A DNA stretch of 49,832 bases. It comes from an uncultured Intestinimonas sp. (lineage in GTDB: Bacteria; Bacillota; Clostridia; Oscillospirales; Oscillospiraceae). The position numbers were made by a program, and so were the translations under genes. A model generated the notes under the pieces. The model searched no databases and was not told the DNA's origin. It worked only from the letters and a program-made list of their open reading frames with translations. The DNA is taken from positions 1-49,832 of the forward strand of contig NZ_CALXEE010000006.1 of NCBI RefSeq assembly GCF_944387245.1, read 5' to 3'. Below, one piece after another: positions 26,182 through 46,350 of the stretch (within the stretch, counting starts at the first letter, position 1; every line of letters starts with the position of its first letter).

Positions 26182-27426
26182 ATGGTGTATCTTATGGAGC
26201 AGTTGATATCCGTTCTCATAGCCATCGCCTTTATTCCCATTTTACTCAGGCTTAAAATTCCCATTGGGCCTACGCTCATTATTTTGGGAATGTTTGTTGG
26301 AATCTTCAGCGGACTTGACCTAGGACAGATCAGGACAGCTTTCTTCAACGTGTTCTTGATTCCGGACACACTCGCCTCTGTCCTGATCGTGATTGAGATC
26401 GGCATGCTCAGCGTCCTTATGTCACATTATGGCCTGCTCAACCGGATGGAGCTGGCCATGCGCAGGCTGCTGCCTTATCCAAAGGTTTTGATGTTATTTT
26501 TTCCCGCATTGGTCGGCGTACTTCAGGCTCCGGGCGGAGCCGCTTTATCCGCTCCGCTGGTAAACCAGATAGGCAAGGAAATGGGACTTGCCCGCGAGAT
26601 GAGAGCCAACATCAATGTGGTTGGCCGGCACATCCTACCGGTCATCGCCCCGTTTTCCACCAACATGATTGTGGTTCACAGTGTTGCCCCTGATGTGAAC
26701 ATTGTCCTGCTGGGACTTTTGAATCTTGGATTTGTCGTCTTGATGCAGGTGTCGGGATATTTTATCCTTATGCGAAACGCCAAAGCCATAGAAACCAATC
26801 CATTGGATGGGACAACCTGGCTCCAGGCGTTTGGGGAATTCAATCTGACCTTTATCCCGGTCTATCTGGCGGTCCTGCCCAATGGATTGTTTGGCATCCC
26901 ATATACGGTTTCGATTGCTGTCGCAATCCTCTCCGTTTTCTTCCTTGGCGGAAAACACGACTTCGGCCAGCAGGTCGTCAAAAGCTTTAATGTCAATCTG
27001 GCGCTCTTGATCATCGGAGTCTATTTTTTTCAAAACATAGTGGGAGAACTGGATGCACTGCTGCTCCTGTTTGAACGGCTGGCCAGCAATCAGTCCAATT
27101 TGATGTTTCTCATTACCGTTGCGGTAATTGGAACGATTTTTGGTCTGGCAACCGGTTTGATGTATCTCCCTCTTGGCGTTCTGGTGCCAATTATCTGCCA
27201 AGCCTTCTATGGCAGCGAGATGGATATGATGGTGCACCTGTTCTATGCTTTCATCTGGTGTTTCATTGGCTATTACTTCTCTCCCATCCACCTTTGCCAG
27301 CTGCTGAGCGACAAGGAAACAGGATGTACGCCTGGTGAACGCTACCGGGCATACATTCCCGTCATGCTTTTATGGCCTGTATTTGCAGTTGTGCTCTATG
27401 CCGTCTACTCCATAACATTGGTCTAA
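26182..27426 (+). CDS. DUF401 family integral membrane protein, probable organic-acid transporter
   Basis: A 414-aa protein with about ten hydrophobic segments, recognisable as DUF401 (ion-transporter/AG-permease-like) by LRLKIPIGPTLIILGMFVGI, the loop VGVLQAPGGAALSAPLV and VVGRHILPVIAPFSTNMI. Such proteins are thought to be anion or organic-acid carriers. It is the first gene after a consensus promoter and is followed by the 4-hydroxybutyryl-CoA dehydratase homologue, so it may carry that pathway's substrate or product. ATG at 26182 or 26194 could both start it; neither ribosome site is strong. Codon use is visibly less GC-rich than in the trp genes. Transport role is inferred. Confidence 0.75.
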   Translation: MVYLMEQLISVLIAIAFIPILLRLKIPIGPTLIILGMFVGIFSGLDLGQIRTAFFNVFLIPDTLASVLIVIEIGMLSVLMSHYGLLNRMELAMRRLLPYPKVLMLFFPALVGVLQAPGGAALSAPLVNQIGKEMGLAREMRANINVVGRHILPVIAPFSTNMIVVHSVAPDVNIVLLGLLNLGFVVLMQVSGYFILMRNAKAIETNPLDGTTWLQAFGEFNLTFIPVYLAVLPNGLFGIPYTVSIAVAILSVFFLGGKHDFGQQVVKSFNVNLALLIIGVYFFQNIVGELDALLLLFERLASNQSNLMFLITVAVIGTIFGLATGLMYLPLGVLVPIICQAFYGSEMDMMVHLFYAFIWCFIGYYFSPIHLCQLLSDKETGCTPGERYRAYIPVMLLWPVFAVVLYAVYSITLV

Positions 27427-27487
27427 GATTCTGAGCATTTGAACCGCCCTTTGAAAAAACAAATATTTGTAGAAAGGAAGATCCCAT

Positions 27488-28951
27488 ATGGCGCTTATGA
27501 CCGGCGAACAGTACATCGAGAGCATTCGCAAGATTCCCATGCAGATCTACATGTTTGGTAAGAAAGTGGAAAATCCCGTGGATGATCCCATCCTTCGTCC
27601 CGCGCTCAACTCCGTTCGCATGACCTATGATCTGGCGCAGATGCCGGAGTATCAAGATCTGATGACGGCCATCTCTCCAGAGACCGGTGAGCGGATCAAT
27701 CGCTTTACCCACATTCATCGCTCCACGGATGATCTGCGCAAAAAGGTAAAAATGCAGCGTCTGCTGGGCCAGAAGACAGCCGCCTGTTTCCAGCGCTGTG
27801 TGGGCATGGATGCGTTCAACGCGGTATACTCCACCACTTATGAGATCGACCAGAAGTGCGGCACCCACTACCATGAGAATTTCAAAAAATTCATGCTCTA
27901 CTGCCAGGAAAAAGACCTGACCGTAGACGGCGCCATGACAGACACCAAGGGTGACCGGTCCAAAACGCCTCATGAGCAGGCCGACCCCGATCTTTTCCTG
28001 CATGTGGTGGAGCGCCGTCCTGACGGTGTGGTGGTCTGCGGTGCGAAGGCCCACCAGACCGGCATCATCAATAGCCACGAGGTCATCGTCATGCCCACCA
28101 TCGCCATGGGGCCCGAAGATAAAGATTACGCGATCTCCTTTGCCGTACCGCTGGACAGTGAAGGCCTTTATATGATCGTCGGTCGTCAGAGCTGCGATAC
28201 CCGTAAGCGGGAGGGCAGTGAGATGGACGTAGGCAACGCCGAGTTTGGCGGCGTGGAGGCTCTCACCGTATTCGACCATGTATTTGTGCCCAATGAGCGC
28301 ATTTTCCTCAACGGAGAGACGGAATTCGCAGGCATGCTGGTGGAACGCTTTGCCGGGTATCACAGGCAGAGCTATGGCGGGTGTAAGGTAGGCGTAGGGG
28401 ATGTGCTTATTGGCGCCGCCGCCGTGGCCGCAGAGTATAACGGGGCCTCCAAGGCATCTCACATCAAGGATAAGCTGATTGAAATGACCCATCTGAACGA
28501 GACTCTGTATTGCTGCGGCATCGCCTGTTCCGCCGAGGGCCATCAGACGGCAAGCGGGAATTATATCATCGATTTGCTGCTTGCCAATGTCTGCAAGCAG
28601 AATGTGACCCGGTTCCCCTATGAGATCGTTCGTCTTGCAGAGGATATTGCCGGCGGTTTGATGGTCACCGCCCCCTCTGAGGCCGATTTCCGGGATGCCA
28701 AGCTCGGCCCTGTCATCGATAAATACCTCAAGGGCGTCTCCGGCGTTTCCACCGAAAACCGTCTCCGCATTCTGCGCCTCATTGAAAATCTGGCGCTGGG
28801 AACAGCCGCTGTAGGCTATCGGACAGAGTCGCTCCATGGCGCAGGCTCTCCCCAGGCTCAGCGGATCATGATCGCACGTCAGGGCAATCTGGAACACAAA
28901 AAAGCCCTCGCCAAGGCCATTGCCCGTATCAAAGAGGATTCCTCTCTCTGA
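27488..28951 (+). CDS. 4-hydroxybutyryl-CoA dehydratase / vinylacetyl-CoA isomerase family enzyme (AbfD-like)
   Basis: A 487-aa FAD and [4Fe-4S] enzyme of the family that dehydrates 4-hydroxybutyryl-CoA to crotonyl-CoA by a ketyl-radical mechanism. All four cluster ligands of the Clostridium aminobutyricum enzyme are present at matching spacing: C100, C104, H292 and C299 (CFQRCVGMD and GYHRQSYGGC). Length is that of AbfD. This separates it from the cluster-less 4-hydroxyphenylacetate hydroxylase relatives. AAGGAAG precedes the ATG. Downstream are an Nfu Fe-S carrier and a small Cys-rich protein, probably for cluster assembly. Two AbfT-type CoA-transferases lie 14-17 kb to the right. A related 4-hydroxyacyl-CoA substrate rather than 4-hydroxybutyryl-CoA is possible. 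Confidence 0.88.
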   Translation: MALMTGEQYIESIRKIPMQIYMFGKKVENPVDDPILRPALNSVRMTYDLAQMPEYQDLMTAISPETGERINRFTHIHRSTDDLRKKVKMQRLLGQKTAACFQRCVGMDAFNAVYSTTYEIDQKCGTHYHENFKKFMLYCQEKDLTVDGAMTDTKGDRSKTPHEQADPDLFLHVVERRPDGVVVCGAKAHQTGIINSHEVIVMPTIAMGPEDKDYAISFAVPLDSEGLYMIVGRQSCDTRKREGSEMDVGNAEFGGVEALTVFDHVFVPNERIFLNGETEFAGMLVERFAGYHRQSYGGCKVGVGDVLIGAAAVAAEYNGASKASHIKDKLIEMTHLNETLYCCGIACSAEGHQTASGNYIIDLLLANVCKQNVTRFPYEIVRLAEDIAGGLMVTAPSEADFRDAKLGPVIDKYLKGVSGVSTENRLRILRLIENLALGTAAVGYRTESLHGAGSPQAQRIMIARQGNLEHKKALAKAIARIKEDSSL

Positions 28952-29015
28952 GCCGTGAACCCATCTCGGGGCGCAATATCTCGTCCACTGCCGTCATGAA
29001 AGGAAGGGCGTTTTT

Positions 29016-29300
29016 ATGGATCAGGAAATCGAACGGGTACTAGATGAATATGTGAGACCGCTTCTCCATTCTCACGGCGGTGATATAGAGGTCCTGGAGT
29101 TTACGGCCGACGGCCTGCTTCGTTTTCGGCTCAGGGGGCAGTGCGCAGGTTGTCCGGCCGCCGACCTGACCACAGAGGAGCTGATCCATACAGAGCTCAC
29201 ACAGCGGCTGCCTCAGGTCAAAAAAGCGGTTTTGGTACGCGAAGTGAGTCCTGACCTGCTGGAACAGGCCAGAAACATCCTCCGAAATCACCATGTCTAG
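29016..29300 (+). CDS. NifU C-terminal-domain (Nfu) iron-sulfur carrier
   Basis: A 94-aa Nfu domain. The N-terminal half has VRPLLHSHGGDIEVLEF and the cluster-binding C-x-x-C is in RGQCAGCPAADLT. Nfu proteins hold a transient [4Fe-4S] cluster between two subunits and pass it to target enzymes. ATG at 29016 has AAGGAAGGGCG upstream. It lies between the [4Fe-4S] dehydratase gene and a small Cys-rich gene, which it overlaps by 8 bases, so it is probably a dedicated maturation factor for that dehydratase. Confidence 0.9.
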   Translation: MDQEIERVLDEYVRPLLHSHGGDIEVLEFTADGLLRFRLRGQCAGCPAADLTTEELIHTELTQRLPQVKKAVLVREVSPDLLEQARNILRNHHV

Positions 29301-29595
29301 TCCGCTCAGCATTGGGGTTCGCTACTGCGGCGGGTGCAACCCACGGTACGACCGGGTCTCTTTTGTGAAACAGCTGGAGACAGCACTTCCCGAGATCCGT
29401 TTCCTCCCCGTGCAGCCGGGAGAGGCATATGCCGCTGTATTGTTGGTGTGTGGCTGCCTGAGCCAATGCGTCAGCTGGGAATTTCTCCCCGTGCCGCAAG
29501 AGCGGGTCATCTGTGTCACATGCCATCAGGATCTCGCCATGGCAATAGAACAGCTGCAAAAAATTACAGCGGTTGTTCGGCCGCATTCCCTTTAG
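29293..29595 (+). CDS. Small cysteine-rich protein with CGGCNPRYDR motif
   Basis: A 100-aa protein I cannot place in a named family. It contains YCGGCNPRYDR near residue 11, VCGCLSQC near 54 and CVTCHQD near 75, giving seven cysteines in CxxC-like arrangements that suit metal or Fe-S binding or thiol chemistry. No signal peptide or membrane segment is seen. Its start overlaps the Nfu gene by 8 bases, so translation is coupled, and a strong terminator follows immediately. A role with Nfu in building or protecting the dehydratase cluster is inferred only from position. Confidence 0.7.
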   Translation: MSSPLSIGVRYCGGCNPRYDRVSFVKQLETALPEIRFLPVQPGEAYAAVLLVCGCLSQCVSWEFLPVPQERVICVTCHQDLAMAIEQLQKITAVVRPHSL

Positions 29596-29596
29596 C

Positions 29597-29642
29597 GCAA
29601 AAAACGTGTCTGACCCTCCAGGGCCAGACACGTTTTTTGTGC
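29597..29642. terminator. Bidirectional terminator between convergent units
   Basis: A 14-base perfect stem AAAAAACGTGTCTG with its complement around a short GC loop, giving T-runs in both directions. It separates the rightward dehydratase operon from the leftward LysR gene. A second small hairpin, CCCTTGC-ATC-GCAAGGG, follows at 29647. Confidence 0.9.
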
Positions 29643-29679: not shown

Positions 29680-30621
29680 TTATATGATCTCTCGATTGAT
29701 ATTCTCATTTTGCTTGGTGATCAGAGTTCCATTTTTGGAATCCTCAATCAACATATCTAAAAAACACCGTGTCATGGGAGGAAGTTTCTTATCTCCTCTC
29801 CATACCACGTTGATATCGCGTACAAACGGCTTATTAATGTCCAGCTCAACCGGGACGACACTGTTGATGTTCAAAAATCCAGAGGTCGGAATAATTGCAA
29901 TCCCCCCTCCGGCAGCTACCATACCGATCACGCCATAATCATTATAGGCTTCCATAACGATGTTGGGCTCAAAACCGTAGGGCGCACACAAATCATAAAG
30001 CAGTCCGTTCGTGCCGCGTCTGCTGCGGATATAGACGATAAAGCGTTCATTTTTCAGCTCTGGAATGGATACCTTTTCCCGTTTTGCAAATGGGTGGTTC
30101 TTGGCAACGATCAGTCCCACAGGTTCCTCGTAGAGGGTGTATTTCTTCAGGGGCACATATTCATTTATGGGTTCAAAATTGCTGCACAATCCCAGCTCCG
30201 CCCGTTCATGGAGCACGTCCTGCAGAACGGAAGTCGTGTAGTGATATTGCAGGGAAAACTTACAAGTGGGCTCGATGCGCCGGAAGCGTATAATCTCTTC
30301 CGGCAGGAAAATGGCGTACATGGAAAAAAGTGCGCTGATGCAGACGGTGTCATTCTCCACGTCCACCATATGACGCACCGCAGCGATTCCTTTTTCCACC
30401 TCGTCCACCGATCGCTTTACGTATTCATAGAACATTTTGCCGTAGGATGTAAGGGAGACGTTCCTACCATCCTTCTCAAAAAGAGGGGCGCCCAGCTCAT
30501 GCTCCAAATTACGAATGGCTTTTGACAGGGCAGGTTGTGTGATATATAGGAGATTGGCAGCCCTTGTAAAATGGCACTGCTCCGCCACAATCTTAAAATA
30601 AATCAATGTCTGGTAGTTCAT
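29680..30621 (-). CDS. LysR family transcriptional regulator of the catabolic cluster
   Basis: A 313-aa LysR-type regulator. The HTH region is MNYQTLIYFKIVAEQCHFTR and ITQPALSKAIRNLEHELGAP, and the effector domain runs from about 90 to 300. ATG at 30621 has GGGAAGG upstream. It is divergent from the TRAP transporter operon across a 366-base gap and convergent with the dehydratase operon, so it most likely senses the substrate or an intermediate of the catabolic cluster and activates dctP onward. Codon use is more AT-rich than the rest of the window. Confidence 0.92.
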   Translation of the reverse strand: MNYQTLIYFKIVAEQCHFTRAANLLYITQPALSKAIRNLEHELGAPLFEKDGRNVSLTSYGKMFYEYVKRSVDEVEKGIAAVRHMVDVENDTVCISALFSMYAIFLPEEIIRFRRIEPTCKFSLQYHYTTSVLQDVLHERAELGLCSNFEPINEYVPLKKYTLYEEPVGLIVAKNHPFAKREKVSIPELKNERFIVYIRSRRGTNGLLYDLCAPYGFEPNIVMEAYNDYGVIGMVAAGGGIAIIPTSGFLNINSVVPVELDINKPFVRDINVVWRGDKKLPPMTRCFLDMLIEDSKNGTLITKQNENINREII

Positions 30622-30987: not shown

Positions 30988-32079
30988 GTGAAGAAGAAGT
31001 TTTGGCGCGTTATGACCGGAATCCTTTCTGTATCGTTGGTCCTCTCCCTGGCAGCTTGCGGCGGTGGCACCGAGGGCTCCAGCACCAATCCTGACGGAGG
31101 CACTGCTGAAGAAAAAATCCATCTCCGCATCGCTTCCTCCTCCCCCACTGTAGAGTTCGACGGCGATGGCACCACCTCTCTGGGTATTTCCGTAAACTAC
31201 TTCATCAAGGAGATCGAGGCCCGCAGCGGCGGCCGCATCACCGCTCAGGTGTTCCCTGATGGTCAGATCGCCTCTTCCACTCAGGAGTATATCGGCGGCC
31301 TCCAGAACGGCGCCTTTGACATCGGCATCCTCAATTGCGGCTCCTGGGGTGACTACACCTCCGCTTTCGCCGGTCTGAATATGCCCTACCTCTATTTTGA
31401 TTACGACACTGTTTATGCTCTGCTGGACTCCGAGATCGGCCAGAGCTGGCAGCAGAAGGCCTATGAGGACACCCAGTGCCTGCCCCTGGCCTGGTTCGAT
31501 ATTGGCTTCCGTGAGCTGACCTGCAACGTGCCGGTCCACAGCCCTGCCGACCTGAAGGGCGTGAAGATCCGTGTCATGCCCGACCCCATTCAGACCGCTA
31601 CCTGGGAAGCCCTCGGCTGCTCTGTGACCCCCGTGGCTTATTCCGAGCTGTATACCGCCCTTCAGCAGGGCCTGGTGGACGCTCAGGAGAACCCCCCCTC
31701 CAACATCGTTTCCTCCAAGGTGTATGAGCTTCAGGATTACATGGTCATTACCCACCACAACTTTACCGCCACCATCCCCGCTGTGAGCCCTGTGCTGTGG
31801 AACAAGCTGTCCGATGAGGATAAGACGCTCATCCAGGAGGTCATGATCGAGGCTCAGAACAAGGGCCGCGAGCAGACCGCCGCCCTTGCAGAAGGCTTCA
31901 TTCAGACTGTGGAAGATGATGCCGGAACTGAGATCATTCGTCTGACTGAGGACGAGCTTCTGGCCTTCCAGGAGGCCACCAAGAGCGTTTGGCCCATGGT
32001 GGAGGAGCAGATGGGTTCCGAGGCGTTCAACGCCATGATCGACTTTGTGGAGAATTATACACCTGAAGCCGAATCCTAA
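30988..32079 (+). CDS. TRAP transporter substrate-binding lipoprotein (DctP family)
   Basis: A 363-aa extracytoplasmic solute receptor. Residues 1-24 form a lipoprotein signal (ILSVSLVLSLAAC) with the acylated Cys at 24, so it is anchored outside the membrane. The DctP/TeaA fold shows in GGLQNGAFDIGILNCGSW, and the carboxylate-gripping Arg is expected in GVKIRVMPDPIQ. It delivers an organic acid to the DctQM permease by sodium-coupled symport. The GTG start at 30988 has AAGGAGAG 6 bases upstream. A terminator-like hairpin separates it from dctQ. Ligand unknown; the downstream enzymes suggest a hydroxylated or sugar acid. Confidence 0.93.
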   Translation: MKKKFWRVMTGILSVSLVLSLAACGGGTEGSSTNPDGGTAEEKIHLRIASSSPTVEFDGDGTTSLGISVNYFIKEIEARSGGRITAQVFPDGQIASSTQEYIGGLQNGAFDIGILNCGSWGDYTSAFAGLNMPYLYFDYDTVYALLDSEIGQSWQQKAYEDTQCLPLAWFDIGFRELTCNVPVHSPADLKGVKIRVMPDPIQTATWEALGCSVTPVAYSELYTALQQGLVDAQENPPSNIVSSKVYELQDYMVITHHNFTATIPAVSPVLWNKLSDEDKTLIQEVMIEAQNKGREQTAALAEGFIQTVEDDAGTEIIRLTEDELLAFQEATKSVWPMVEEQMGSEAFNAMIDFVENYTPEAES

Positions 32080-32122: not shown

Positions 32123-32157
32123 GCAAAAAGCCCGCCCGTTGCGGGCGGGCTTTTTGC
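32123..32157 (+). terminator. Hairpin terminator/attenuator between dctP and dctQ
   Basis: A perfect inverted repeat GCAAAAAGCCCGCC with its complement and five T on the right, 43 bases after dctP. Partial termination or 3'-end protection here would make the binding protein more abundant than the permease. Being symmetrical it could also act leftward. Confidence 0.88.
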
Positions 32158-32181
32158 ACGCTTTTTTAGGGAGGGTTATTG

Positions 32182-32757
32182 GTGAAAAACGGAAAATTTG
32201 ACCTAAAAACATTCTTAAACAACTTTGAACTGTATCTCGCCACACTCTGTTTTATTGTTCTGACTGTGATGCTTACTCTGCAGGTGTTCAGCCGATTTGT
32301 GCTGGGCCATTCCTGGACTTGGATGGAGGAATTCGCCACCATCATGTTCGTGTGGATGATCTACCTGGCTATATCTGCCGCTGTTACCCACCGTAAACAC
32401 CTGAAAATCGACGTCCTTCTGGAGGCTGTTCCCTTCCAGGTCAAGAAGGTCATGTTGATTGCCTCCAATGTGATCTTTGCCGCCTTCAATATTTATATCA
32501 GTGTGATCATGGTGAACGTCATTCAACTGCTGGGCAGCAGTAAGACCACCATGCTGGGTATCCCTCAGCAGCTGGTATATATCGTGATTCCTATCGGCCT
32601 TATCATCAGCGTCATCCGCCTGGTCCAGGACACTCTGAAGCTACTGAAAGAGGAAAAGAAGGACCTGGGCGCTTCCAAGCCCTCCATGGATCTGGATGCT
32701 TGTGAGCGGGCCTGGGAGGAAAAGAAGGCCGCCAAGGCGAAAGGAGAGTCGGTATAA
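32182..32757 (+). CDS. TRAP transporter small permease subunit (DctQ family)
   Basis: A 191-aa membrane protein with four hydrophobic helices (ELYLATLCFIVLTVMLTLQVF, WMEEFATIMFVWMIYLAIS, KKVMLIASNVIFAAFNIYIS, LVYIVIPIGLIISVI) and the conserved W-x-E-E motif after the first. It associates with DctM. I chose the GTG at 32182, which has GGGAGGG upstream. Its stop overlaps the dctM start (TAATG). The charged C-terminal tail (KKAAKAKGE) lies in the cytoplasm. Confidence 0.9.
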   Translation: MKNGKFDLKTFLNNFELYLATLCFIVLTVMLTLQVFSRFVLGHSWTWMEEFATIMFVWMIYLAISAAVTHRKHLKIDVLLEAVPFQVKKVMLIASNVIFAAFNIYISVIMVNVIQLLGSSKTTMLGIPQQLVYIVIPIGLIISVIRLVQDTLKLLKEEKKDLGASKPSMDLDACERAWEEKKAAKAKGESV

Positions 32758-34046
32758 TGGCAACCGGTATTATGTTCCTGGTGATGTTTGCCCTGATGTT
32801 CCTGGGTGTTCCCATCGCCGTGGCGATCTACATCGCTCTTTTTGTTCTCATTGGGTTAAACCCCGTTACCACCGCTAACTTTGTTGCTCAGACGCTGTAT
32901 GGCGGCGTAGCAAACTTTACGAACCTAGCACTGCCCTTCTTTATGATCTGCGGCACCATCATGGAGACCGGCGGCCTGTCCAAGCGTCTGGTCAAGTTCG
33001 CAAACTCCCTGGTGGGCGGCATCACCGGCTCTCTGGGCATGGTGACCGTAATCGCCTGTATGTTCTTCGGCGCCGTGTCCGGCTCCGCCCCCGCCACTGT
33101 GGCCGCCATCGGCTCCATCATGATCCCCATGATGGTGTCCAACGGCTACAACAAGTACTACGCCACCGGCCTGACCTGCTGTGCCGGCGGTCTGGGCGTC
33201 ATTGTTCCCCCCAGCTATCCCATGGTCCTCTATGGTGTGACCTGTAACGTGTCCGTGGGCGAGCTGTTCATCGCCGGCCTCGGTCCCGCTCTGGTCGTGG
33301 GCGGCATCCTGATGATCATCAACTATGTCATGTGCAAGCGCTGGGGCATCAAAGGCGACACCAAATTCGATCTGAAGAATGTGGCTGTCAGCTTCTGGGA
33401 AGCCAAGTGGGCCCTGGTCATGCCCGTCATCATTCTGGGCGGCATTTACTCCGGCGTGTTCACTGCCACTGAGGCGGCCGTTATCGCCTCCGTGTACGGC
33501 ATCATCGTCGGCCTGTTCATCCACCGTGAGCTTCGCCTGGAGCCCCTGTGGAGAATCTTCCGCGACAACGCCGCTTTCATCGCCGGCACCATGTTCGTTA
33601 TGGCTCCCTCCAAGGCCACCGGCCAGATCTTCGCCTACCTGAATATCACCCAGATCATCAGCGACTTCATGTTCGGCATCTCCAGCAACACCTATGTGGT
33701 TCTCTTGATGATCTTCATTATCATGTTCATCGTGGGTATGTTCGTCCAGACCACCCCCGCCATCGTCATCCTGGCCCCCACTCTGCTGGCCGTGGTGCAG
33801 CAGGTGGGCGTGGACCCCATCCACTTCGGTATCATTATGACCCTGGCTCTGGCCATCGCCTTCGTCACCCCGCCTGTGGCCCTCAACCTGTTTGTGGGCT
33901 CCTCCATGACCGGTCTGAGCATCGACAGGATCGTAAAGGCATTTATGCCGTTCCTCATCGGACTGATCATCGCATTCTTCGTTGTGGCGTTTGTCCCGGC
34001 CATCTCCTTGGGTATCTTGGGAGACTGGTCTTTGACATTTGGTTAA
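32757..34046 (+). CDS. TRAP transporter large permease subunit (DctM family)
   Basis: A 429-aa permease with about 12-13 membrane helices. Typical segments are ALMFLGVPIAVAIYIALF, LPFFMICGTIMETGGLSKRL, GAVSGSAPATVAAIGSIMIP, VIVPPSYPMVLYGV and the C-terminal ALAIAFVTPPVALNLFVGS. It is the ion-coupled translocating subunit and pairs with DctQ and DctP. Start and stop overlap dctQ by one base. Placed immediately ahead of two acid-sugar enzymes, it very probably brings in their substrate. Confidence 0.95.
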   Translation: MATGIMFLVMFALMFLGVPIAVAIYIALFVLIGLNPVTTANFVAQTLYGGVANFTNLALPFFMICGTIMETGGLSKRLVKFANSLVGGITGSLGMVTVIACMFFGAVSGSAPATVAAIGSIMIPMMVSNGYNKYYATGLTCCAGGLGVIVPPSYPMVLYGVTCNVSVGELFIAGLGPALVVGGILMIINYVMCKRWGIKGDTKFDLKNVAVSFWEAKWALVMPVIILGGIYSGVFTATEAAVIASVYGIIVGLFIHRELRLEPLWRIFRDNAAFIAGTMFVMAPSKATGQIFAYLNITQIISDFMFGISSNTYVVLLMIFIIMFIVGMFVQTTPAIVILAPTLLAVVQQVGVDPIHFGIIMTLALAIAFVTPPVALNLFVGSSMTGLSIDRIVKAFMPFLIGLIIAFFVVAFVPAISLGILGDWSLTFG

Positions 34047-38308: not shown

Positions 38309-39467
38309 GTTTATGGGATATGTCCGGCCCGACGGACAGGTAGGCTGCCGCAATCATGTGGCGGTGATTCCCAGCGTGACTTGCGCCGGAGACGTGGCCT
38401 CCGCTGTGACCAGGCAGGTGGCTGGCACGGTGGGTTATTTCCACCATCAGGGCTGCTGTCAGCTGCCTCCTGATCTGGACCGGGTTACGGAGACACTGAT
38501 CTCATTGGGCTGCAGCCCCAATGTGGGCGCAGCCCTGGTGGTCAGTCTGGGCTGTGAGGGCACTGATACGGAGCGCCTGGTGGAATCCATCCGAAAAACC
38601 GGCAAGCCCGTCCGTGTGATCCGCATTCAGGAGCTGGGCGGCGTCAGCGCCGCCATCAAGGCCGGTATCGACGCGGCTCAGGAGCTGGTCATGGAGATCT
38701 CCGGCCTGCAGCGTACGCCCGTGGGCATCGAAAACGTCACCATGTCCATTAAGTGTGGAGCGTCGGACACCACCTCCGGTATGGCTTCCAACTGCGTGAT
38801 CGGCTATGTGGCGGACAAGCTGGTGGACCTGGGCGCCGCGGTGATATTCGGAGAAACGACGGAATTTCTCGGCGGTGAGCATCTCCTGGCCCGGCGGGCG
38901 GTAAATCAGGATGTGGCGCGGAGGATCTACGAGATCGTGGACAATATGGAACGCCGTGCCAGGAGCCTTGGCTGCGATATGCGGCGGGGCCAGCCCACCC
39001 CGGGCAACATCGAGGGCGGGCTGTCCTCCATCGAGGAAAAAAGCCTGGGCGCCATTGTCAAAAGCGGCAGCCGTCCCATCCAAGGCGTCCTGGATTATCC
39101 GGAACGCATCGCGGGCCGGAAGGGCCTGTGGATCAAGGACACCCCGGGCCGGGAACCCGAAATCCTGACCGGCATGGCCGCTTCCGGTGCCCAGTTCATG
39201 ATGTTCTCCACCGGCCGGGGCGCTCCGCAGGGCTTCCCCACCATGCCGGTGCTGAAGGTGTGCGGCAACCCCAACACCTACGAGCGCATGAAGCATGATA
39301 TGGACCTTAACGCAGGCCGGATCATCACCGGCGAAAAAAGCATCGCGGAAGTGGGCGAAGAGGCCTTCCAGGCGGTACTCGCCCTGCTCTCCGGTAAGCA
39401 GACCAAAAATGAAACCCTGGGCTATCACAGTTCCATCGATATCTATACCATGGGCCCAGTCATTTAA
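38298..39467 (+). CDS. UxaA/SuyB-type lyase large subunit
   Basis: A 389-aa catalytic subunit of the UxaA family. It starts with YVRPDGQVGCRNHVAVIPSV, as in altronate dehydratase, and contains HHQGCCQLPPD, VSLGCEGTD and IKCGASDTTSG; the several Cys and His are consistent with a bound iron centre. The C-terminal part has KDTPGREPEILTGMAASGAQ and FSTGRGAPQGFPTMPVLKVCGN. Length fits SuyB or UxaA without its N-terminal domain. Start chosen at ATG 38298 with GGGGGAG upstream. Works with the small subunit encoded just before it. Confidence 0.9.
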   Translation: MSYEFMGYVRPDGQVGCRNHVAVIPSVTCAGDVASAVTRQVAGTVGYFHHQGCCQLPPDLDRVTETLISLGCSPNVGAALVVSLGCEGTDTERLVESIRKTGKPVRVIRIQELGGVSAAIKAGIDAAQELVMEISGLQRTPVGIENVTMSIKCGASDTTSGMASNCVIGYVADKLVDLGAAVIFGETTEFLGGEHLLARRAVNQDVARRIYEIVDNMERRARSLGCDMRRGQPTPGNIEGGLSSIEEKSLGAIVKSGSRPIQGVLDYPERIAGRKGLWIKDTPGREPEILTGMAASGAQFMMFSTGRGAPQGFPTMPVLKVCGNPNTYERMKHDMDLNAGRIITGEKSIAEVGEEAFQAVLALLSGKQTKNETLGYHSSIDIYTMGPVI

Positions 39468-39496
39468 TCATGAATCAATCAAAGGAGGAACCTATT

Positions 39497-40024
39497 ATGT
39501 GTACCGAAGCCGAGAAAAACGAGATGTGTGAACTGGCCAGCCAGTATGCCATTGAGAACTTTAAGCATGGACTCAACTGCGCGGAGAGCGTATACAACGC
39601 TCTGGTGCGGGCCGGGGCCCTGGACGTATCACCGGAGACGGTGGCTATGTGTCTGGGCTTCGGTGGCGGCGTGGGCCTATCCGGCTGTATCTGCGGCGCT
39701 TTGGCCGCCTCTGTCATTGCCAACGGCGCCAAGTACGGTCGGAAAGATCCCTACTCCGTCCCCGAAGATATCAGAGGGAGCGAAATTGCCGCCCGCTATT
39801 ACCGCCGCTACAACAATCTGATCCACGATTTTACCGAAGCCTATGGCAGCCCCTTGTGCAAGGACATCTGCAGCAAGTACGCCGAGTTCAGCAGCAAGGA
39901 GCGGAAGGTGGGCTGTCTTAAAATGATCGGCGGCACAGCCGCTCTGGCCTGCCGCTACCTCCAGATGTCCCAGGAGGAGTCGGAAGCCCTTCCCTACCAG
40001 GAGAACCTGGCCGGCAACAAGTAA
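39497..40024 (+). CDS. C_GCAxxG_C_C family protein
   Basis: A 175-aa Cys-rich protein of the C_GCAxxG_C_C family. Motif cysteines are visible in GLNCAESVYN, GGGVGLSGCICGALAAS, PLCKDICSKY and RKVGCLKM. Members are often next to redox or metal enzymes and are suspected to carry electrons or bind metal, but none is well characterised. ATG at 39497 has AAAGGAGGAA 7 bases upstream. It lies between the lyase and a transporter gene in the catabolic cluster. Confidence 0.87.
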   Translation: MCTEAEKNEMCELASQYAIENFKHGLNCAESVYNALVRAGALDVSPETVAMCLGFGGGVGLSGCICGALAASVIANGAKYGRKDPYSVPEDIRGSEIAARYYRRYNNLIHDFTEAYGSPLCKDICSKYAEFSSKERKVGCLKMIGGTAALACRYLQMSQEESEALPYQENLAGNK

Positions 40025-40060: not shown

Positions 40061-40996
40061 ATGAAAATCGGAGCCATTTTAAGACTGTTGACGATCATCT
40101 GTACGATGATGGCCATCATTGCTCTGGGCTTTGCAGCCGCACACTTCGGTATCATTGGCGATCAGGGAAGAAAAAATATTTCCTCGCTCGTCATCGACCT
40201 GGTTTACCCCTGCTACGTACTCAACAGCTTCATCAATAACATTGGGCTTTTCACAGGCGGCGCGATGCTGTTTATCTTTCTCCTGGGCACCCTGGCGCAG
40301 GGGGCAACCCTCCTGTGCAACCATGCCTTGTATCGGAAAGCCCCCCCAGACAAGCAGAGTGTCCTGCGCTACGGCACGGTGGTCTCCAATTCCGCCTTTT
40401 TGGGAGTACCAATGGTAGAGAGCGTTTTTGGAAACGCCGGACTGATCTGCGCATCCATCTTTGTCATCCCGCTGAGGATCAACACCTTCGGAGTCGCGGT
40501 GGGATATTTTCTCTCCCAGGATGGCGAAGGCCTTGGCAGACGGCTCAGACGTATCCTGACGCAGCCATCTATTCTGGCCACCATTGTAGGGATCGTCATC
40601 ATGCTCGCGGAGTGGCAGCCACCTGTGCTGGTGACTTCCGTGCTCTCCTCCATGGCCGGCTGCTCTACACCGCTTTGCATGATGACCATCGGTATGGTGA
40701 TACAGGCCAATGCAAAGCAAATCCACATGGACAAGCTCACCGCCAAATTCACGCTGGCCAGGCTGGTTCTGATCCCGGCCGTCACCTTTGCCATATTTCG
40801 TCTGTGCGGTCTGGACCAGATACTGGTGGGGACTGCCGTGCTGCTGGCCGCCATGCCCATTGGTACCACTGTGGCTCTGCTGGCCGACAAATATGGGAAA
40901 AACGCGGCCTACGCCGGAGAACTGGTTTTGGTCACGACCCTGTGCTCCATGCTCACACTACCGGTCTGGAGCTATCTGTGCCTTTTTTGGGCCTAG
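40061..40996 (+). CDS. AEC (auxin efflux carrier) family transporter
   Basis: A 311-aa membrane protein with about ten helices in the AEC/BART pattern: IIALGFAAAHFGIIGDQGRK, the DLVYPCYVLNSF helix, NSAFLGVPMVESVFGNAG in the middle and AAMPIGTTVALLADKYG near the end. Such carriers move organic anions such as malonate or malate. It may be a second importer or may export a pathway end product. Start is ambiguous between GTG 40058 and ATG 40061, since the GGGGGTG motif is immediately adjacent. A hairpin terminator follows. Confidence 0.87.
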   Translation: MKIGAILRLLTIICTMMAIIALGFAAAHFGIIGDQGRKNISSLVIDLVYPCYVLNSFINNIGLFTGGAMLFIFLLGTLAQGATLLCNHALYRKAPPDKQSVLRYGTVVSNSAFLGVPMVESVFGNAGLICASIFVIPLRINTFGVAVGYFLSQDGEGLGRRLRRILTQPSILATIVGIVIMLAEWQPPVLVTSVLSSMAGCSTPLCMMTIGMVIQANAKQIHMDKLTAKFTLARLVLIPAVTFAIFRLCGLDQILVGTAVLLAAMPIGTTVALLADKYGKNAAYAGELVLVTTLCSMLTLPVWSYLCLFWA

Positions 40997-41012
40997 CGGG
41001 TCCGGAAGATCC

Positions 41013-41057: not shown

Positions 41058-41102
41058 TACCGGTGGGTCCGGCCTAGTCACAACGGAAAGGAAGCGATGC
41101 CA

Positions 41103-42395
41103 ATGAGTTGGAAGGAATATTATCAATCCCATCAAATGACCGCCGACGAGGCTGTTGCTCATATCAAATCCGGAAACCGGGTGGTGGTCGGACACGCCGT
41201 AGGCGAGCCCTGCCACCTGGTTTCCACCATGGTCCAGCACGCCGAAGATTACCGGGATGTGGAGATCGTCCACATGGTGGCCATGGGCAAGTGCGAATAT
41301 TGTAAACCTGAATACGCCGGGCACTTCCGACACAACTCCCTGTTTCTGGGTGGGACCAGCCGGGAAGCCGTGGCAGCCGGACGGGCCGACTTTACTCCCT
41401 GTTTTCTTTTTGAGGTACCCAAGCTCTTTGAAACCACTCTGCCGGTGGATGTGGCCTTGATTTCCGTCACACCCCCCGATGAAAACGGGCGGTGCAGCCT
41501 GGGCGTATCCGTGGACTACACCTACGCCGCCGCCAAGCACGCAAAATACGTCATTGCCCAGGTCAACGCCAAAATGCCCCGAACCTTTGGCGCTTATCTG
41601 GATGTGACTGATATTGACAGCTTCGTCCTGTGGGACGAGCCCATTCTGGTCCTCCCACCTCCCAAAATCACCGAGGTGGAGGAGGCCATCGGCCGGAACT
41701 GCGCCTCCCTGATCCAGGACGGGGATACCCTGCAGCTGGGCATCGGCGCCATCCCGGACGCCGTGCTCCGCTTCCTCCGGGATAAGAAAGACCTGGGCAT
41801 CCACTCCGAGACCTTTTCCGACGGCGTGGTGGACCTGGTCGAAGCCGGTGTAATTACCAATGCAAAGAAGAAGCTGCACCCCGGAAAATTTGTCTCCACC
41901 CTGATGATGGGGACGCAGCGCCTTTACGATTTCGTGGACAACAACCCCGATGTGGAGCTCTATCCGGTGGACTATTCCAACCATCCCAACACCATCGCCA
42001 AAAATGAAAATATGGTATCCATCAACTCGGCCATTCAGGTGGATCTGATGGGACAGGTCAACGCCGAAACCATCGGTCCCAGACAATTCTCCGGGATCGG
42101 CGGACAGGTGGACTATATTCGCGGCACGGCCCTCGCTGTCAATGGCCGCTCCATCATCGCCATGCATTCCCAGGCCAAGGGCGCATCCAAGATCGTTGCT
42201 GATCTGGATGACGGCGCTGTGGTTACCACTTCCCGCTGCGACGTGGACTATGTGGTCACCGAATACGGCGTGGCACACCTGAAGGGCCATACCCTGCGGG
42301 ATCGGGCACGGGCCTTGATTTCCATCGCCCACCCGGACTTCCGGCCGGAGTTGGCCAAAGCCTATGAGGCCCGTTTCCACGAGCCCCTTCCCTAA
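41103..42395 (+). CDS. 4-hydroxybutyrate/acetyl-CoA hydrolase-transferase family CoA-transferase (AbfT-like), 1
   Basis: A 430-aa family I CoA-transferase. The start MSWKEYYQSHQMTADEAV aligns with the first residues of 4-hydroxybutyrate CoA-transferase AbfT. QLGIGAIPDAVL and the catalytic Glu E236 (GIHSET) are present, as are SGIGGQVDYIRG and TSRCDVDYVVTEYGVAHL. It moves CoA from acetyl- or butyryl-CoA onto a hydroxy acid. GGAAAGGA lies upstream. With the AbfD-like dehydratase it would make and dehydrate a hydroxyacyl-CoA. A paralogue is encoded two genes later, so substrate choices may differ. Confidence 0.88.
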   Translation: MSWKEYYQSHQMTADEAVAHIKSGNRVVVGHAVGEPCHLVSTMVQHAEDYRDVEIVHMVAMGKCEYCKPEYAGHFRHNSLFLGGTSREAVAAGRADFTPCFLFEVPKLFETTLPVDVALISVTPPDENGRCSLGVSVDYTYAAAKHAKYVIAQVNAKMPRTFGAYLDVTDIDSFVLWDEPILVLPPPKITEVEEAIGRNCASLIQDGDTLQLGIGAIPDAVLRFLRDKKDLGIHSETFSDGVVDLVEAGVITNAKKKLHPGKFVSTLMMGTQRLYDFVDNNPDVELYPVDYSNHPNTIAKNENMVSINSAIQVDLMGQVNAETIGPRQFSGIGGQVDYIRGTALAVNGRSIIAMHSQAKGASKIVADLDDGAVVTTSRCDVDYVVTEYGVAHLKGHTLRDRARALISIAHPDFRPELAKAYEARFHEPLP

Positions 42396-42427: not shown

Positions 42428-43192
42428 ATGATGGGAACCTACGACTGGAAAGAGATCACGGATAAGCTCAACCGATACCTTCATCTCATGCAGACGCCTG
42501 TAGGAATGAAGTGGATCGTTTCTGAAGAAGAATTATCGGCCATTCCAAAGCTCCGGATTCACCAGAAACGTTTCTCTCCCTGTACCATCGTCAGCCAGGC
42601 GGTCCAGTTTGGGTGGACAGTCGCGTGCAAGGCTGAAAACATCCATGCGGATTATTGCCGGGGCATCCACGGCATGGCGCCGCTGGATGAGAAATGGTAC
42701 TCCGGAGAAATGTTTCAGGGGGTGTGGTTTGACGACATAGAGATGTCAAAGGCCCATAACCGGGCGCTGGAATGTGTGCCCAACCAATACATTGCTCTGG
42801 TGGTATCCCCCCTGACTGCCGGACGCATCGAGCCGGAGGTATGTGTCCTGTATACAAGCTCCGCGCAGGCCTTTATGCTCTTTGCCGCCTGGCAGCGCAA
42901 GGCATATGAAAAACTACAGTTCACCTTTGTGGGCGAGTCCACCTGCGCCGACTCCTGGGTCCACACCCGCAACACCGGTAAGCCCGGCTTTGCCATCCCC
43001 TCTTTTGCCGACCGGAAATTCGGCGGTGTGGGCGAGTGGGAGGTGCGGGTCACCTTTACGCCGGAGGACCTGGTCCGGGCCGTGGACGGGCTGGAGGCCA
43101 TGTTCCGCAGCGGCCTGCGCTATCCCATCGGCTCTTACAGCCTGACCACCGACATCATTCAGGGGCTGCCGCCCCACTATATGAATTACTGA
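42428..43192 (+). CDS. DUF169 family protein
   Basis: A 254-aa protein of the DUF169 family, recognised from LNRYLHLMQTPVGMKW near the start, FSPCTIVSQAV, VWFDDIEMSKAHN and the end IGSYSLTTDIIQGLPPHYMN. The biochemical role of the family is unknown. Several conserved-looking Cys (for example in SPCT, ACKAEN, DYCRG and STCADSW) could bind metal or a cofactor. AAGGAG precedes ATG 42428, and ATG 42431 is possible too. It is encoded between two CoA-transferase paralogues, which suggests a role in the same pathway. Confidence 0.8.
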   Translation: MMGTYDWKEITDKLNRYLHLMQTPVGMKWIVSEEELSAIPKLRIHQKRFSPCTIVSQAVQFGWTVACKAENIHADYCRGIHGMAPLDEKWYSGEMFQGVWFDDIEMSKAHNRALECVPNQYIALVVSPLTAGRIEPEVCVLYTSSAQAFMLFAAWQRKAYEKLQFTFVGESTCADSWVHTRNTGKPGFAIPSFADRKFGGVGEWEVRVTFTPEDLVRAVDGLEAMFRSGLRYPIGSYSLTTDIIQGLPPHYMNY

Positions 43193-43245
43193 TATGCCTT
43201 GCCACAAGTAACTGAGCTGATTCCAACCTGAAAGGAGATGGACCC

Positions 43246-44547
43246 ATGACCGATTGGAAGTCTTATTATCAAGACCATAAAATGACGGCAGAAGAGGCCG
43301 TGAACCATATCAAAAGCGGAGATCGCGTCATCAATTCCCACTTGGGCGGCGCGCCTCTGCCCATTGTCGAGGCGATGGTCAAAAATGCTGCCGCCTATGA
43401 GAACGTAGAGATCTGCTGTATGCTGACCTCGGACGGTATCCCCTACGCCCAGGAGCAATACCGCGGCCACTTCCACATGAATCCGTGGTTTGTGGCCTCC
43501 AATTCCGCCAAGGCTCTGGCAGAGGGCTACGGCGACTTCACCCCCAGCCATTTCTCTGAGATTCCCGGCCTGCTGCGCACGGTGATGAAGCCGGATGTGG
43601 CACTGATCCAGGTCTCCCCTCCGGATGAGCACGGCTATGTGAGTTTAGGCCTGAGCACTGACTATATGGTCTGCGCCTCCAAGATGGCCGGCACCGTCAT
43701 CGCCGAGGTCAACGCCCAGTGCCCCCGTCTGTTCGGCGAGTCCATGATGCACGTCACGGACATTGACTGCTTTGTGGAGACCGACCGGCCCATTCCGCCC
43801 GCACCGGTCACGCAGATCACCGATATTGAGCGGCAGATCGGCAGCTACTGTGCCGACCTCATTGGAGACGGCGCCTGCCTCCAGATCGGCATCGGCGCCA
43901 TTCCCGACGCGATCCTGGGATTTCTGGATCAGAAAAAGGACCTGGGCATCCACTCGGAGATCATTGGCGACGGTGTACAGCACCTGTGTGAGATCGGCGT
44001 CATCAACGGCAGCCGGAAGGAGCTGAATAAAGGTAAGGTGGTCTGTACCAGCCTGTACGGCACAGACAAGCTCTATCACTTTGCCAATGATAACCCCATC
44101 TTCGAACTATACCCGGTGGACTATACCAACGATGTCCGCATCATCTCTCAACACAGCAATATGGTATCGGTAAACTCCTGTGTCGAGGTAGATCTGACCG
44201 GGCAGGTGTGCTCCGAGGCAGTCGGGCCCCGGCAGATCAGCGGTATCGGCGGACAGGTCGACTTTGTCCGGGGCGCCAAGATGTCCCAGGGCGGCAAGTC
44301 CATCATCGCCTGCTATTCCACAGCCAAGGGCGGTACGATCTCCAAGATCGTACCGGCGCTCAAGCCCGGCACTCCGGTGACCACCTCCCGCACAGATGTG
44401 GATTACATCGTCACCGAATACGGCGTGGCCCATCTGCGGGGGAAATCTCTTCGGGCGCGGGCAGAGGCCCTAATTTCTGTCGCCCATCCGGATTTCCGTG
44501 ACGAACTGCGCGCGCAGTACCGGCAAATCTACGGCAGAGCGTTGTAA
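43246..44547 (+). CDS. 4-hydroxybutyrate/acetyl-CoA hydrolase-transferase family CoA-transferase (AbfT-like), 2
   Basis: A 433-aa paralogue of the first CoA-transferase (opening MTDWKSYYQDHKMTAEEAV). Catalytic Glu E238 lies in GIHSEI, with QIGIGAIPDAIL, SGIGGQVDFVRG and TSRTDVDYIVTEYGVAHLRG conserved. The N-terminal substrate-side segment differs (SHLGGAPLPIVEAM against GHAVGEPCHLVSTM), so the acid accepted is probably different. AAAGGAGATGG lies upstream of the ATG. Together the pair could activate an incoming acid and release the end product, recycling CoA without ATP. Confidence 0.88.
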   Translation: MTDWKSYYQDHKMTAEEAVNHIKSGDRVINSHLGGAPLPIVEAMVKNAAAYENVEICCMLTSDGIPYAQEQYRGHFHMNPWFVASNSAKALAEGYGDFTPSHFSEIPGLLRTVMKPDVALIQVSPPDEHGYVSLGLSTDYMVCASKMAGTVIAEVNAQCPRLFGESMMHVTDIDCFVETDRPIPPAPVTQITDIERQIGSYCADLIGDGACLQIGIGAIPDAILGFLDQKKDLGIHSEIIGDGVQHLCEIGVINGSRKELNKGKVVCTSLYGTDKLYHFANDNPIFELYPVDYTNDVRIISQHSNMVSVNSCVEVDLTGQVCSEAVGPRQISGIGGQVDFVRGAKMSQGGKSIIACYSTAKGGTISKIVPALKPGTPVTTSRTDVDYIVTEYGVAHLRGKSLRARAEALISVAHPDFRDELRAQYRQIYGRAL

Positions 44548-44652
44548 ACTACCCTTTGCAGGATTCACCGGCCAAGCAGGTCATATTACCCTCTGGCCCT
44601 TGCATACAGGTAGTTTCAACCCCCAGTAAAAAGACAGGTAAGGAGAACGGTT

Positions 44653-46350
44653 ATGTCCAAAAAAATAGTCATTGTCGGCGGCGTCGCCGGCGGCGCATCG
44701 GCCGCGGCCCGGATCCGGCGTCTGGATGAGCAGGCGGAGATTGTCATGCTGGAGCGCGGGCACCACGTATCTTTTTCCAACTGCGCCCTCCCATTCTATC
44801 TCAGCGGTATGGTGGCAAGCAGCGGCAGTCTGGTCCTGATGGACCCGGTCAAGTTCAAAAAGCAGTATAATATTGACGCCCGCGTCAACAGCGAGGTCAC
44901 CCAGATTGACCGAACCCACAAGGTCGTCAAGGTAAAAGACCTCAGCACCGGGTCTTGCTATGATGAGCCCTACGATGTGCTGGTGCTCTCCCCCGGAGCC
45001 GCGCCCATCCGTCCGGAGAGTATCCAGGGAATCCATCTGCCCCATGTATTCACTGTACGGAATGTGGACGACATCGTGGCCCTGAAGCAGTATGTGGACA
45101 CCAACGCTGTGGCACAGGTCGCCGTGGTCGGGGGCGGTTTCATTGGCGTAGAGGTGGCTGAGAATCTGCGGGAGAGCGGTAAGGCCGTCACAATGATCGA
45201 GGCCATGGACCAGATTATGGCGCCTTTCGATCTTGATATGGCCCAGATCCTCCACAAGGAGATGGCGGATCACGGCGTAGATCTGATCCTGGGTGACGGT
45301 GTGAAGCAGATCGAGCCGGACAAGGTGATCCTGAACTCCGGCAAAGCTGTGGAAGCAGGTGCCGTGGTCATGGCCATCGGCGTACGTCCTGAGACCTCGC
45401 TGGCGAAGGACGCCGGACTGATACTGGGCGAGACCGGCGGTATCCAGGTAGACACCAATTACAAAACCAGCGATCCCTCCATCTATGCGGTAGGCGATGC
45501 CATTGAGGTATACAATCGCCTGGCCCATAAAACGGTTCGCCTTCCGTTGGCCGGTCCTGCGCAGAGACAGGCCAGGGCCGCCGCCAATGATATCTGTGGT
45601 CTGGGCAGCAAGAACCGCGGTGTGATCGGCTCCTCCATCGTCAAGCTCTTCGGCCTCAAGGCAGCCTCCACCGGTCTGAATGAAAAGACGGCCAAGGCGG
45701 CCGGCATTCCCTATGATTTTGTCTATATCATCCCCAATGACAAGGTCAGCATCATGCCCGGCAACAGCCCTGTCCACTTCAAGCTTCTCTTTGAGAAACC
45801 CACCGGCCGTATCCTGGGTGCACAGGCCATCGGCAAAGGAAGCGTGGACAAGCGCATAGATGTGATTGCCGCTATGATCGCCATGAACGCCGACCTGGAG
45901 GATCTCCAGGATCTGGAGCTGTGTTACGCCCCCCTGTTCGGCACAGCCAAGGATGTGGTCAACTACGCCGCCATGGTAGCGCTGAACGTGCAAAACGGTG
46001 TCTTCCGCCAGGTCCCCGTTACCGCCGTCCGGTCGCTTGTGGAGAATAACGCCTGCATCATCGATGTCCGAGAGGAAAATGAATTTGAAGCCGGCCATCT
46101 GCTCAATGCCAAAAATATTCCCCTCAGTCAGCTGCGGGCACGTATGGCTGAGATCCCCAGAGATCGCCCTGTATACCTCCATTGCCGCTCCAGCCAGCGC
46201 AGCTACAATGCCATCATGGCTTTACAGGGTCACGGTTACGATAATCTGTGGAACATTTCCGGCTCCTTCCTGGGTATCTGCCTATATGAGTATTTTACCG
46301 ATCTAACCGAAGGCAGAGAAAAGATTGTAACCGCCTATAATTTTAAGTAA
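44653..46350 (+). CDS. CoA-disulfide reductase/NADH oxidase-like flavoprotein with rhodanese domain
   Basis: A 565-aa protein. Residues 1-450 are a pyridine-nucleotide-disulfide oxidoreductase of the CoA-disulfide reductase type: FAD motif IVGGVAGGASAAARIR, single active Cys C44 in VSFSNCALP, NAD(P)H motif VAVVGGGFIGVEVAEN and the FAD motif IYAVGDAIEV. Residues about 465-560 form a rhodanese domain with catalytic C511 (YLHCRSSQRSY). CoADR-rhodanese proteins reduce CoA disulfides, persulfides or polysulfide with NAD(P)H. GGAGAACGG precedes the ATG. In this cluster it may keep CoA reduced or deal with sulfur released by the lyase. It is the last gene of the catabolic region. Confidence 0.92.
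   Translation: MSKKIVIVGGVAGGASAAARIRRLDEQAEIVMLERGHHVSFSNCALPFYLSGMVASSGSLVLMDPVKFKKQYNIDARVNSEVTQIDRTHKVVKVKDLSTGSCYDEPYDVLVLSPGAAPIRPESIQGIHLPHVFTVRNVDDIVALKQYVDTNAVAQVAVVGGGFIGVEVAENLRESGKAVTMIEAMDQIMAPFDLDMAQILHKEMADHGVDLILGDGVKQIEPDKVILNSGKAVEAGAVVMAIGVRPETSLAKDAGLILGETGGIQVDTNYKTSDPSIYAVGDAIEVYNRLAHKTVRLPLAGPAQRQARAAANDICGLGSKNRGVIGSSIVKLFGLKAASTGLNEKTAKAAGIPYDFVYIIPNDKVSIMPGNSPVHFKLLFEKPTGRILGAQAIGKGSVDKRIDVIAAMIAMNADLEDLQDLELCYAPLFGTAKDVVNYAAMVALNVQNGVFRQVPVTAVRSLVENNACIIDVREENEFEAGHLLNAKNIPLSQLRARMAEIPRDRPVYLHCRSSQRSYNAIMALQGHGYDNLWNISGSFLGICLYEYFTDLTEGREKIVTAYNFK

Follow-up and report, generated by a model that had tools for sequence, protein, structure and literature searches.

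A putative composite locus combining a hydroxy-acid operon and 4-hydroxybutyrate genes in an uncultured Intestinimonas sp.

We analysed a 49,832-bp stretch of DNA from an uncultured Intestinimonas sp., here called the window, which is the whole of contig C6 of a 2.31-Mb genome that is 82.1% complete. Our analysis suggests that positions 26182-46350 form a composite catabolic locus, in which a glycerate-type hydroxy-acid operon and a 4-hydroxybutyrate (4HB) set would be coupled at the level of acetyl-CoA, NADH and common regulation, without carbon passing along a single chain; we put the probability of this reading at roughly 0.43. The new part of the locus is a cassette encoding a LarA-family nickel-pincer racemase and the SAF and GD_AH subunits of a two-subunit dehydratase (LarA-SAF-GD_AH), and the 4HB set is of a known type. 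No description of the cassette was found in the portions of open-licence PMC papers that were available. An earlier note on this DNA had named a tripartite ATP-independent periplasmic (TRAP) importer, two enolase-superfamily acid-sugar enzymes, a LarA-like racemase, a two-subunit lyase, two AbfT-type CoA-transferases and an AbfD-type dehydratase. Pfam, NCBIfam and PDB searches of 26.2-46.9 kb, with further calls to 49.0 kb, recovered all of these at or near where the note had placed them. The locus contains further genes that are absent from the note, for DUF401 and AEC permeases, NifU-like, Cys-rich, LysR, C_GCAxxG_C_C and DUF169 proteins and a CoA-disulfide reductase with a rhodanese domain.

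Gene content, linkage and orthology were observed directly, and the composite structure was recognised by comparison with locus L074 of Oscillospiraceae CE91-St43. There DUF401, LysR, DctPQM, MR1, MR2, LarA, SAF, GD_AH and AEC genes are arranged as in the window, and MR1 and MR2 are each 92% identical. DUF401 adjoins LysR in L074 at the point where the window has an insert of AbfD, NifU-like and Cys-rich protein genes. Between GD_AH and AEC, L074 has ~60 bp and the window a C_GCAxxG_C_C gene, and no transferase was matched after AEC in L074. L076 keeps the part from DctP to GD_AH, and its contig ends there. Because the L074 backbone has neither the AbfD insert nor the transferases, the window locus is, as judged from sequence, a composite of a hydroxy-acid backbone and a 4HB set placed at two sites. 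Two observations speak against an assembly chimera. A second assembly, L073 (94-99% identity), has LarA, SAF, GD_AH, C_GCAxxG_C_C, AEC and CoAT1 genes contiguous, and DUF401 and LysR, which flank the window's AbfD insert, adjoin each other in L074; the insert itself was seen in the window contig only.

The first of the two sites holds AbfD, a member of the 4-hydroxybutyryl-CoA dehydratase family (27488-28951, plus strand; 791 bits to 1u8v). The four cluster ligands that the earlier note had attributed to it are all in place, as C100, C104, H292 and C299 align with C99, C103, H292 and C299 of 1u8v, which we take to be the Cys, Cys, His and Cys ligands of the cluster. AbfD is followed on the same strand by a NifU-like gene (29016-29297; PF01106, 70.8 bits) and a gene for a 100-residue Cys-rich protein without a Pfam match (29293-29595). 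At the second site, also on the plus strand, are the AbfT-type CoA-transferases CoAT1 (41097-42395) and CoAT2 (43246-44547; 465 bits to 3gk7). In G253, the genome of L076, homologues of CoAT2 (79%, 456 bp from AbfD), NifU (57%), AbfD (88%) and CoAT1 (79%, 100 bp from AbfD) form one cluster. In a transferase tree, both window transferases are joined at 100/100 to one of these AbfD-flanking G253 genes, inside an AbfD-adjacent group. The small Cys protein has homologues in 12/26 AbfD loci versus 0/80 cassette loci (defined below). Based on the G253 cluster, the tree and the distribution of the Cys protein, the AbfD, NifU-like, Cys-rich, CoAT1 and CoAT2 genes look like one 4HB set of known type. 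The cluster and the tree also led us to reject CoAT1 and CoAT2 as original members of the MR/LarA operon.

Similar associations were seen in the other AbfD loci that we compared, 25 of which encode AbfD at >60% identity (26 were used for the Cys protein). Within 4 kb of AbfD, 17 of the 25 carry a NifU-like gene and 11 a CoAT1-like transferase. CoAT1 relatives were detected in 11 of 21 genomes examined, a subset of the 50 cassette genomes described below, and DUF401 was not matched in the AbfD loci examined. One locus (L065, in G132) has a CoAT1-like gene between two AbfD copies, with four AbfD matches in that genome overall. The set resembles the 4HB branch of the 4-aminobutyrate butyrate pathway of the Clostridium aminobutyricum type, both in AbfD with its aligned ligands and in AbfT-type transferases of the AbfD-adjacent group. 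It differs in having two transferases, in being split around a hydroxy-acid operon, and in that a search confined to 26.2-49.0 kb of the window recognised neither a 4-hydroxybutyrate dehydrogenase gene nor one for the succinate-semialdehyde step.

To place the cassette in a wider context, a genome collection was scanned with an alignment of eight GD_AH orthologues. This yielded 237 confirmed relatives, the best 80 of which were kept as cassette loci. GD_AH identity is 73-78% in 74 of these and higher in six. SAF is present in 79/80 and LarA in 71/80, with LarA identity at least 55% in 66 loci and 33-35% in five (L100, L102, L123, L126 and L152). Bacillota lineages account for most of the labels, with gut samples as a frequent source, and six loci are labelled otherwise (L106, L128, L129, L134, L135 and L140; labels of metagenome-assembled genomes as given). 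Neighbour clusters, each named from one scanned representative, include a GntP permease in 40 loci, a GntR/FCD regulator in 37 and a MOFRL glycerate 2-kinase in 27; in 8 loci the kinase gene immediately precedes LarA in the same orientation. These counts are lower bounds, since many loci sit on short contigs (flanks of at least 9.9 kb on both sides in 27 loci and at least 5 kb in 37). The open reading frame (ORF) picker used is crude in high-GC DNA. In L078, LarA is preceded by an aminotransferase gene of cluster c19, RidA and a D-2-hydroxyacid dehydrogenase, a set that fits the needs of hydroxypyruvate/glycerate metabolism. LarA, SAF and GD_AH form a cassette that is widespread and stands on its own, and the genes usually found beside it point to a C3 acid that feeds into pyruvate.

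Other partners were also seen. MR_MLE enzymes lie beside the cassette in L074, L076, L118, L121, L128 and a Sporomusa termitida plasmid. In six loci (L100, L102, L114, L123, L126 and L152), GD_AH and LarA-family genes are found by a tricarboxylate-transporter set, MmgE/PrpD and an adenylosuccinate-lyase/CMLE-like lyase of the fumarase superfamily, and five of these six have a class II fumarase (FumC) cluster. By analogy, this arrangement looks like catabolism of an acid (an imino- or ether-linked succinate, for instance) that is cleaved to fumarate and a hydroxy acid. In two further loci (L075:2142 and L078:11180), the gene that comes 13-22 bp after GD_AH encodes a CoA-transferase that does not belong to the AbfT group.

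In the window, the cassette comprises LarA (36690-37982), SAF (37979-38308) and GD_AH, the catalytic subunit of the UxaA C-terminal type (38298-39467), all on the plus strand; SAF and GD_AH were called by family matches. The earlier note had described the lyase as of UxaA/SuyAB type and proposed placing it in a tree. We built one from 30 proteins, with two SuyB references named by operon context only (Rhodobacteraceae SC52 and Variovorax), one UxaA and one GarD; several of its branches are long. The window protein falls in a tight clade (100/100) with a Sporomusa protein as sister (96/99), apart from SuyB and from UxaA/GarD. Identity is 37% to SuyB and 30% to UxaA. Like SuyAB, the window enzyme has its SAF and GD_AH subunits as separate genes, but its partner is LarA in place of the sulfolactate dehydrogenases of SuyAB operons. 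It shares SAF and GD_AH domains with altronate dehydratase UxaA and galactarate dehydratase GarD, which are single chains in contrast to the window's two genes.

The racemase gives further hints on the substrate. The His, His and Tyr-Gln-x-x-Lys motifs, presumably catalytic, are invariant in 63 aligned LarA rows and the same in 6c1w. Nickel-pincer lactate racemase LarA shares these motifs as well as the Phe-Phe pocket, which is kept in the window protein. In contrast, a loop reads DG-M-GG-T in the window type (M in 58/63 rows, T in 52/63) versus DG-H-GG-E in 2yjg and 6c1w, and the neighbours of the window-type enzyme are dehydratase and glycerate-type genes. According to the accessible part of one paper, L. 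plantarum LarA owes a narrower substrate range to its Phe-Phe pocket (PMC11851776). The kept pocket means that a C3 substrate would suit the window enzyme. The maturation gene that was searched for, larC (PF01969), is encoded on contig C79 of the window's genome. Family lists were drawn up for 59 of 203 cassette-neighbour proteins; these held one Ldh_2 and two D-2-hydroxyacid dehydrogenases, and no lactate permease was among the 25 families listed. The commonest cassette neighbours (GntP, GntR/FCD and glycerate 2-kinase) suggest a substrate other than lactate.

Based on these observations, we propose the following scheme, in which all substrates and reactions are predicted from sequence. A LysR-controlled operon would import a small hydroxy acid via the TRAP transporter, and perhaps also via the DUF401 or AEC permease. 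The LarA-family racemase would interconvert the C2 stereoisomers of this acid, and SAF/GD_AH would eliminate the substituent at C3, forming a 2-oxo acid; the most likely conversion is that of glycerate to pyruvate. MR1 and MR2 would dehydrate further sugar acids to 2-oxo-3-deoxy acids. In the 4HB set, CoAT1 and CoAT2 are predicted to move CoA from acetyl- or butyryl-CoA to 4-hydroxybutyrate, and AbfD to dehydrate 4-hydroxybutyryl-CoA to crotonyl-CoA. The two sets would probably be linked via acetyl-CoA, NADH and shared regulation.

Several observations weigh against this scheme. The family model that matches LarA, NF033504 (589.8 bits; cut-off 460), names it lactate racemase. The window has neither GntP nor a glycerate kinase, and a search of the 82%-complete genome gave no MOFRL kinase; the case for glycerate therefore comes from relatives. 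The 4HB genes lie at two sites inside the operon, which argues for closer coupling than the scheme assumes. Finally, in G150, a genome of the window's genus, a run containing an MR1-like gene and 2-hydroxyacyl-CoA dehydratase (HGD-D) genes lies near AbfD.

This last observation and the placement of the 4HB genes favour a linear route, similar to that of the earlier note, in which a C4 polyhydroxy acid of the threonate/erythronate type would be dehydrated by MR or GD_AH enzymes to 4-hydroxy-2-oxobutyrate and reduced, and the resulting 2,4-dihydroxybutyrate racemised, transferred to CoA, dehydrated by 2-hydroxyacyl-CoA dehydratase and reduced to 4-hydroxybutyryl-CoA for AbfD. In G150, AbfD-NifU-CoAT1(AbfT) is 5.6 kb from the MR1-like gene (50%; L179:3643-15725, L063:7703-17637). 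The one-strand run there comprises a CitMHS permease, an acyl-CoA dehydrogenase, a type-III CoA-transferase, a BadF-type activase and two HGD-D genes, with the MR1-like gene at its end, and a LysR gene and a sigma-54 activator lie between the run and AbfD. A sugar acid stripped serially of its hydroxyls would require genes of this kind, and this run makes the linear route more plausible than first judged. Seven HGD-D matches, spread over three contigs other than that of the window, were found in the window's genome; one group includes acyl-CoA dehydrogenase-like (46% to G150), activase-like (49% to G150) and transferase genes. In the transferase tree, the transferases directly after GD_AH in L075 and L078 group with a transferase of the window's genome whose neighbours are 2-hydroxyacyl-CoA dehydratase genes (L181). 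A LarA homologue also accepts 2,4-dihydroxybutyrate, as stated in the accessible part of PMC11851776, which we count in favour of this route.

Nevertheless, we consider the linear route unlikely, if worth keeping in view. It requires a reductase and an HGD dehydratase from outside the locus: the reductive 2-hydroxyacyl-CoA branch (CoA-transferase, activase, HGD-D, acyl-CoA dehydrogenase) resembles the G150 genes near AbfD and the group elsewhere in the window's genome, but no HGD-D was recognised in the scanned 26.2-46.9 kb. AbfD adjoins the cassette in 0/80 other loci (27 of them with at least 9.9 kb on both sides), the syntenic L074 operon has no 4HB gene, the G150 stretch examined has no LarA or close GD_AH, and the L075 and L078 transferases fall outside the AbfT group. 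Transferases other than those of the AbfT set are found beside the cassette (L075, L078) and near MR genes (type I in L173, type III in G150).

The earlier note had treated the region as a single linked system. What stands of this claim is that AbfD and the AbfT-type genes are one set interleaved at two sites; the G150 run also speaks for it, as does G064, where 8.9 kb separate AbfD from a SAF/GD_AH pair that belongs to another clade (42%; L048:1343-13087). The L074 operon and the 0/80 count speak against it. The note's own refuting condition, absence of co-occurrence, gave a mixed result. Among 250 family genomes, 0/7 others with a close GD_AH (at least 69%) have AbfD (E 1e-60), compared with 36/242 of the remainder, which suggested that AbfD and the cassette never co-occur. 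This was contradicted by a separate set of 50 genomes, traced from the cassette loci (the first 50 of these), in which AbfD is present in 14. Among the six genomes that encode the nearest GD_AH proteins (L073-L078), AbfD is present in G251, G253 and G255 and absent from G250 (1.1 Mb covered), G252 and G254.

Another alternative is that two independent catabolic sets lie side by side in this strain without any coupling. In the complete L074 genome the nearest AbfD is ~134 kb from the operon, in G253 the AbfD cluster and the cassette are on different contigs, and the 0/80 count is again in line with independence. However, the 4HB genes are placed inside one locus at two sites, not alongside it; between dctP (30988) and 46350 every gene has the same orientation and no gap is >123 bp; and the CoAT1 linkage recurs in L073. 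We regard simple neighbourhood as rather improbable.

Two further proposals are less probable still. Combining elements of the above, LarA-SAF-GD_AH could be a dedicated cross-phylum cassette for both glycerate enantiomers (or a close C3-C4 analogue), whose UxaA-family enzyme would be a natural glycerate dehydratase that forms pyruvate with no kinase involved. In this genus, AbfD could in addition work in series with sugar-acid dehydratases and 2-hydroxyacyl-CoA dehydratase, so that a C4 polyhydroxy acid would lose its hydroxyls in turn and be fermented to butyrate. As a whole, we see this as a long shot. A sulfolactate route, in which LarA would racemise sulfolactate, SAF/GD_AH would release sulfite and pyruvate as SuyAB does, and the CoA-disulfide reductase/rhodanese would handle sulfur, is quite unlikely: the two-subunit architecture, the rhodanese domain and the L078 aminotransferase and D-2-hydroxyacid dehydrogenase neighbours, which resemble cysteate/sulfolactate operons, are consistent with it, but tree placement and identities led us to reject GD_AH as SuyB, glycerate-kinase genes neighbour the cassette, no sulfite exporter or reductase is among the 25 families listed per library (205 and 66 matched) for the 59 of 203 cassette neighbours, and the genome's only NIR_SIR (siroheme sulfite/nitrite reductase) match is a 254-residue ORF (L202:3752-4516) without recognised partners, its neighbours having been listed and not scanned.

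The composite reading leaves a role for the MR_MLE enzymes MR1 (34080-35258, plus strand; 92-93% identical in L074 and L076) and MR2 (35364-36566, plus strand; 51% to MR1). Both match PF02746 and PF13378, the two domains looked for in galactonate-dehydratase-like enzymes, and all their NCBIfam matches are below cut-off, so that they are assigned at the level of the enolase superfamily only, as acid-sugar-dehydratase-like proteins. The earlier note's statement that no aldolase is present holds for the scanned region, and a normal sugar-acid route could still operate, since one gene of the KDPG-aldolase family was found elsewhere in the genome, on a different contig. In the available part of PMC11775122, a commensal gud/gar oxidised-sugar pathway is described as a hydroxy-acid route to glycerate with glycerate kinase in gut bacteria. 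It differs from the window locus: an aldolase and an ABC transporter are named there, UxaA is absent from the text, and the word racemase appears twice, within a single reference entry.

Three redox-type genes of the locus, all on the plus strand and called by family matches, encode a C_GCAxxG_C_C protein (39470-40024), a DUF169 protein (42428-43192) and a CoA-disulfide reductase with a C-terminal rhodanese domain (44653-46350). They were considered as 4HB genes and set aside, as they recur in MR loci. Sixteen such loci were fetched, chosen from 32 genomes with an MR match with preference for paired MR genes, and their neighbour clusters were each named after a single representative; DUF169 is present in 8, C_GCAxxG_C_C in 7 and CoA-disulfide reductase in 5. 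In L173, of the same genus as the window, an MR enzyme is found with AEC, a type-I CoA-transferase, CoA-disulfide reductase (48%) and C_GCAxxG_C_C (59-60%). The redox genes may serve the MR enzymes. The window DUF169 protein is ~20% identical to those beside MR enzymes elsewhere, too distant to be called an orthologue. Enolase-superfamily enzymes, C_GCAxxG_C_C, CoA-disulfide reductase and DUF169 were also seen as a recurring set in L167, L168, L169, L177 and L173 (L173 without DUF169), and no description of the DUF169/C_GCAxxG_C_C/CoA-disulfide reductase gene set was found in the accessible portions of the literature.

These results have some practical meaning. The cassette pairs a nickel racemase with a two-subunit dehydratase and is a clear target for purified-protein work. 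Caution is needed before LarA genes in gut genomes are read as evidence of lactate use. Further, abfD alone is a doubtful marker for the 4-aminobutyrate pathway, because here 4HB genes are built into a hydroxy-acid operon; in the available part of one survey, abfD drew proportionally high read numbers (PMC5715108).

The remaining genes of the locus are concerned with transport and regulation. The DUF401 permease (26182-27426, plus strand; PF04165, 56.6 bits) is 58% identical to the L074 copy beside LysR and is a candidate second importer. The LysR regulator (29680-30621, minus strand) is divergent from the TRAP operon and syntenic in L074 (60%). Family matches identified the solute-binding protein DctP (30988-32079), DctQ (32179-32757), DctM (32757-34046) and the AEC-family permease (40061-40996; syntenic in L074, 62%), all on the plus strand. 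A scan for terminator-like sites returned 23, compared with 14.8 expected. A strong hairpin with a 16-bp stem and a T-run lies between dctP and dctQ (32123-32157, plus strand); this candidate attenuator would perhaps raise the binding protein over the permease. Just past the operon, at 47091-49043, is a gene whose product combines SLH and Big_2 domains with a CAP/YkwD domain.

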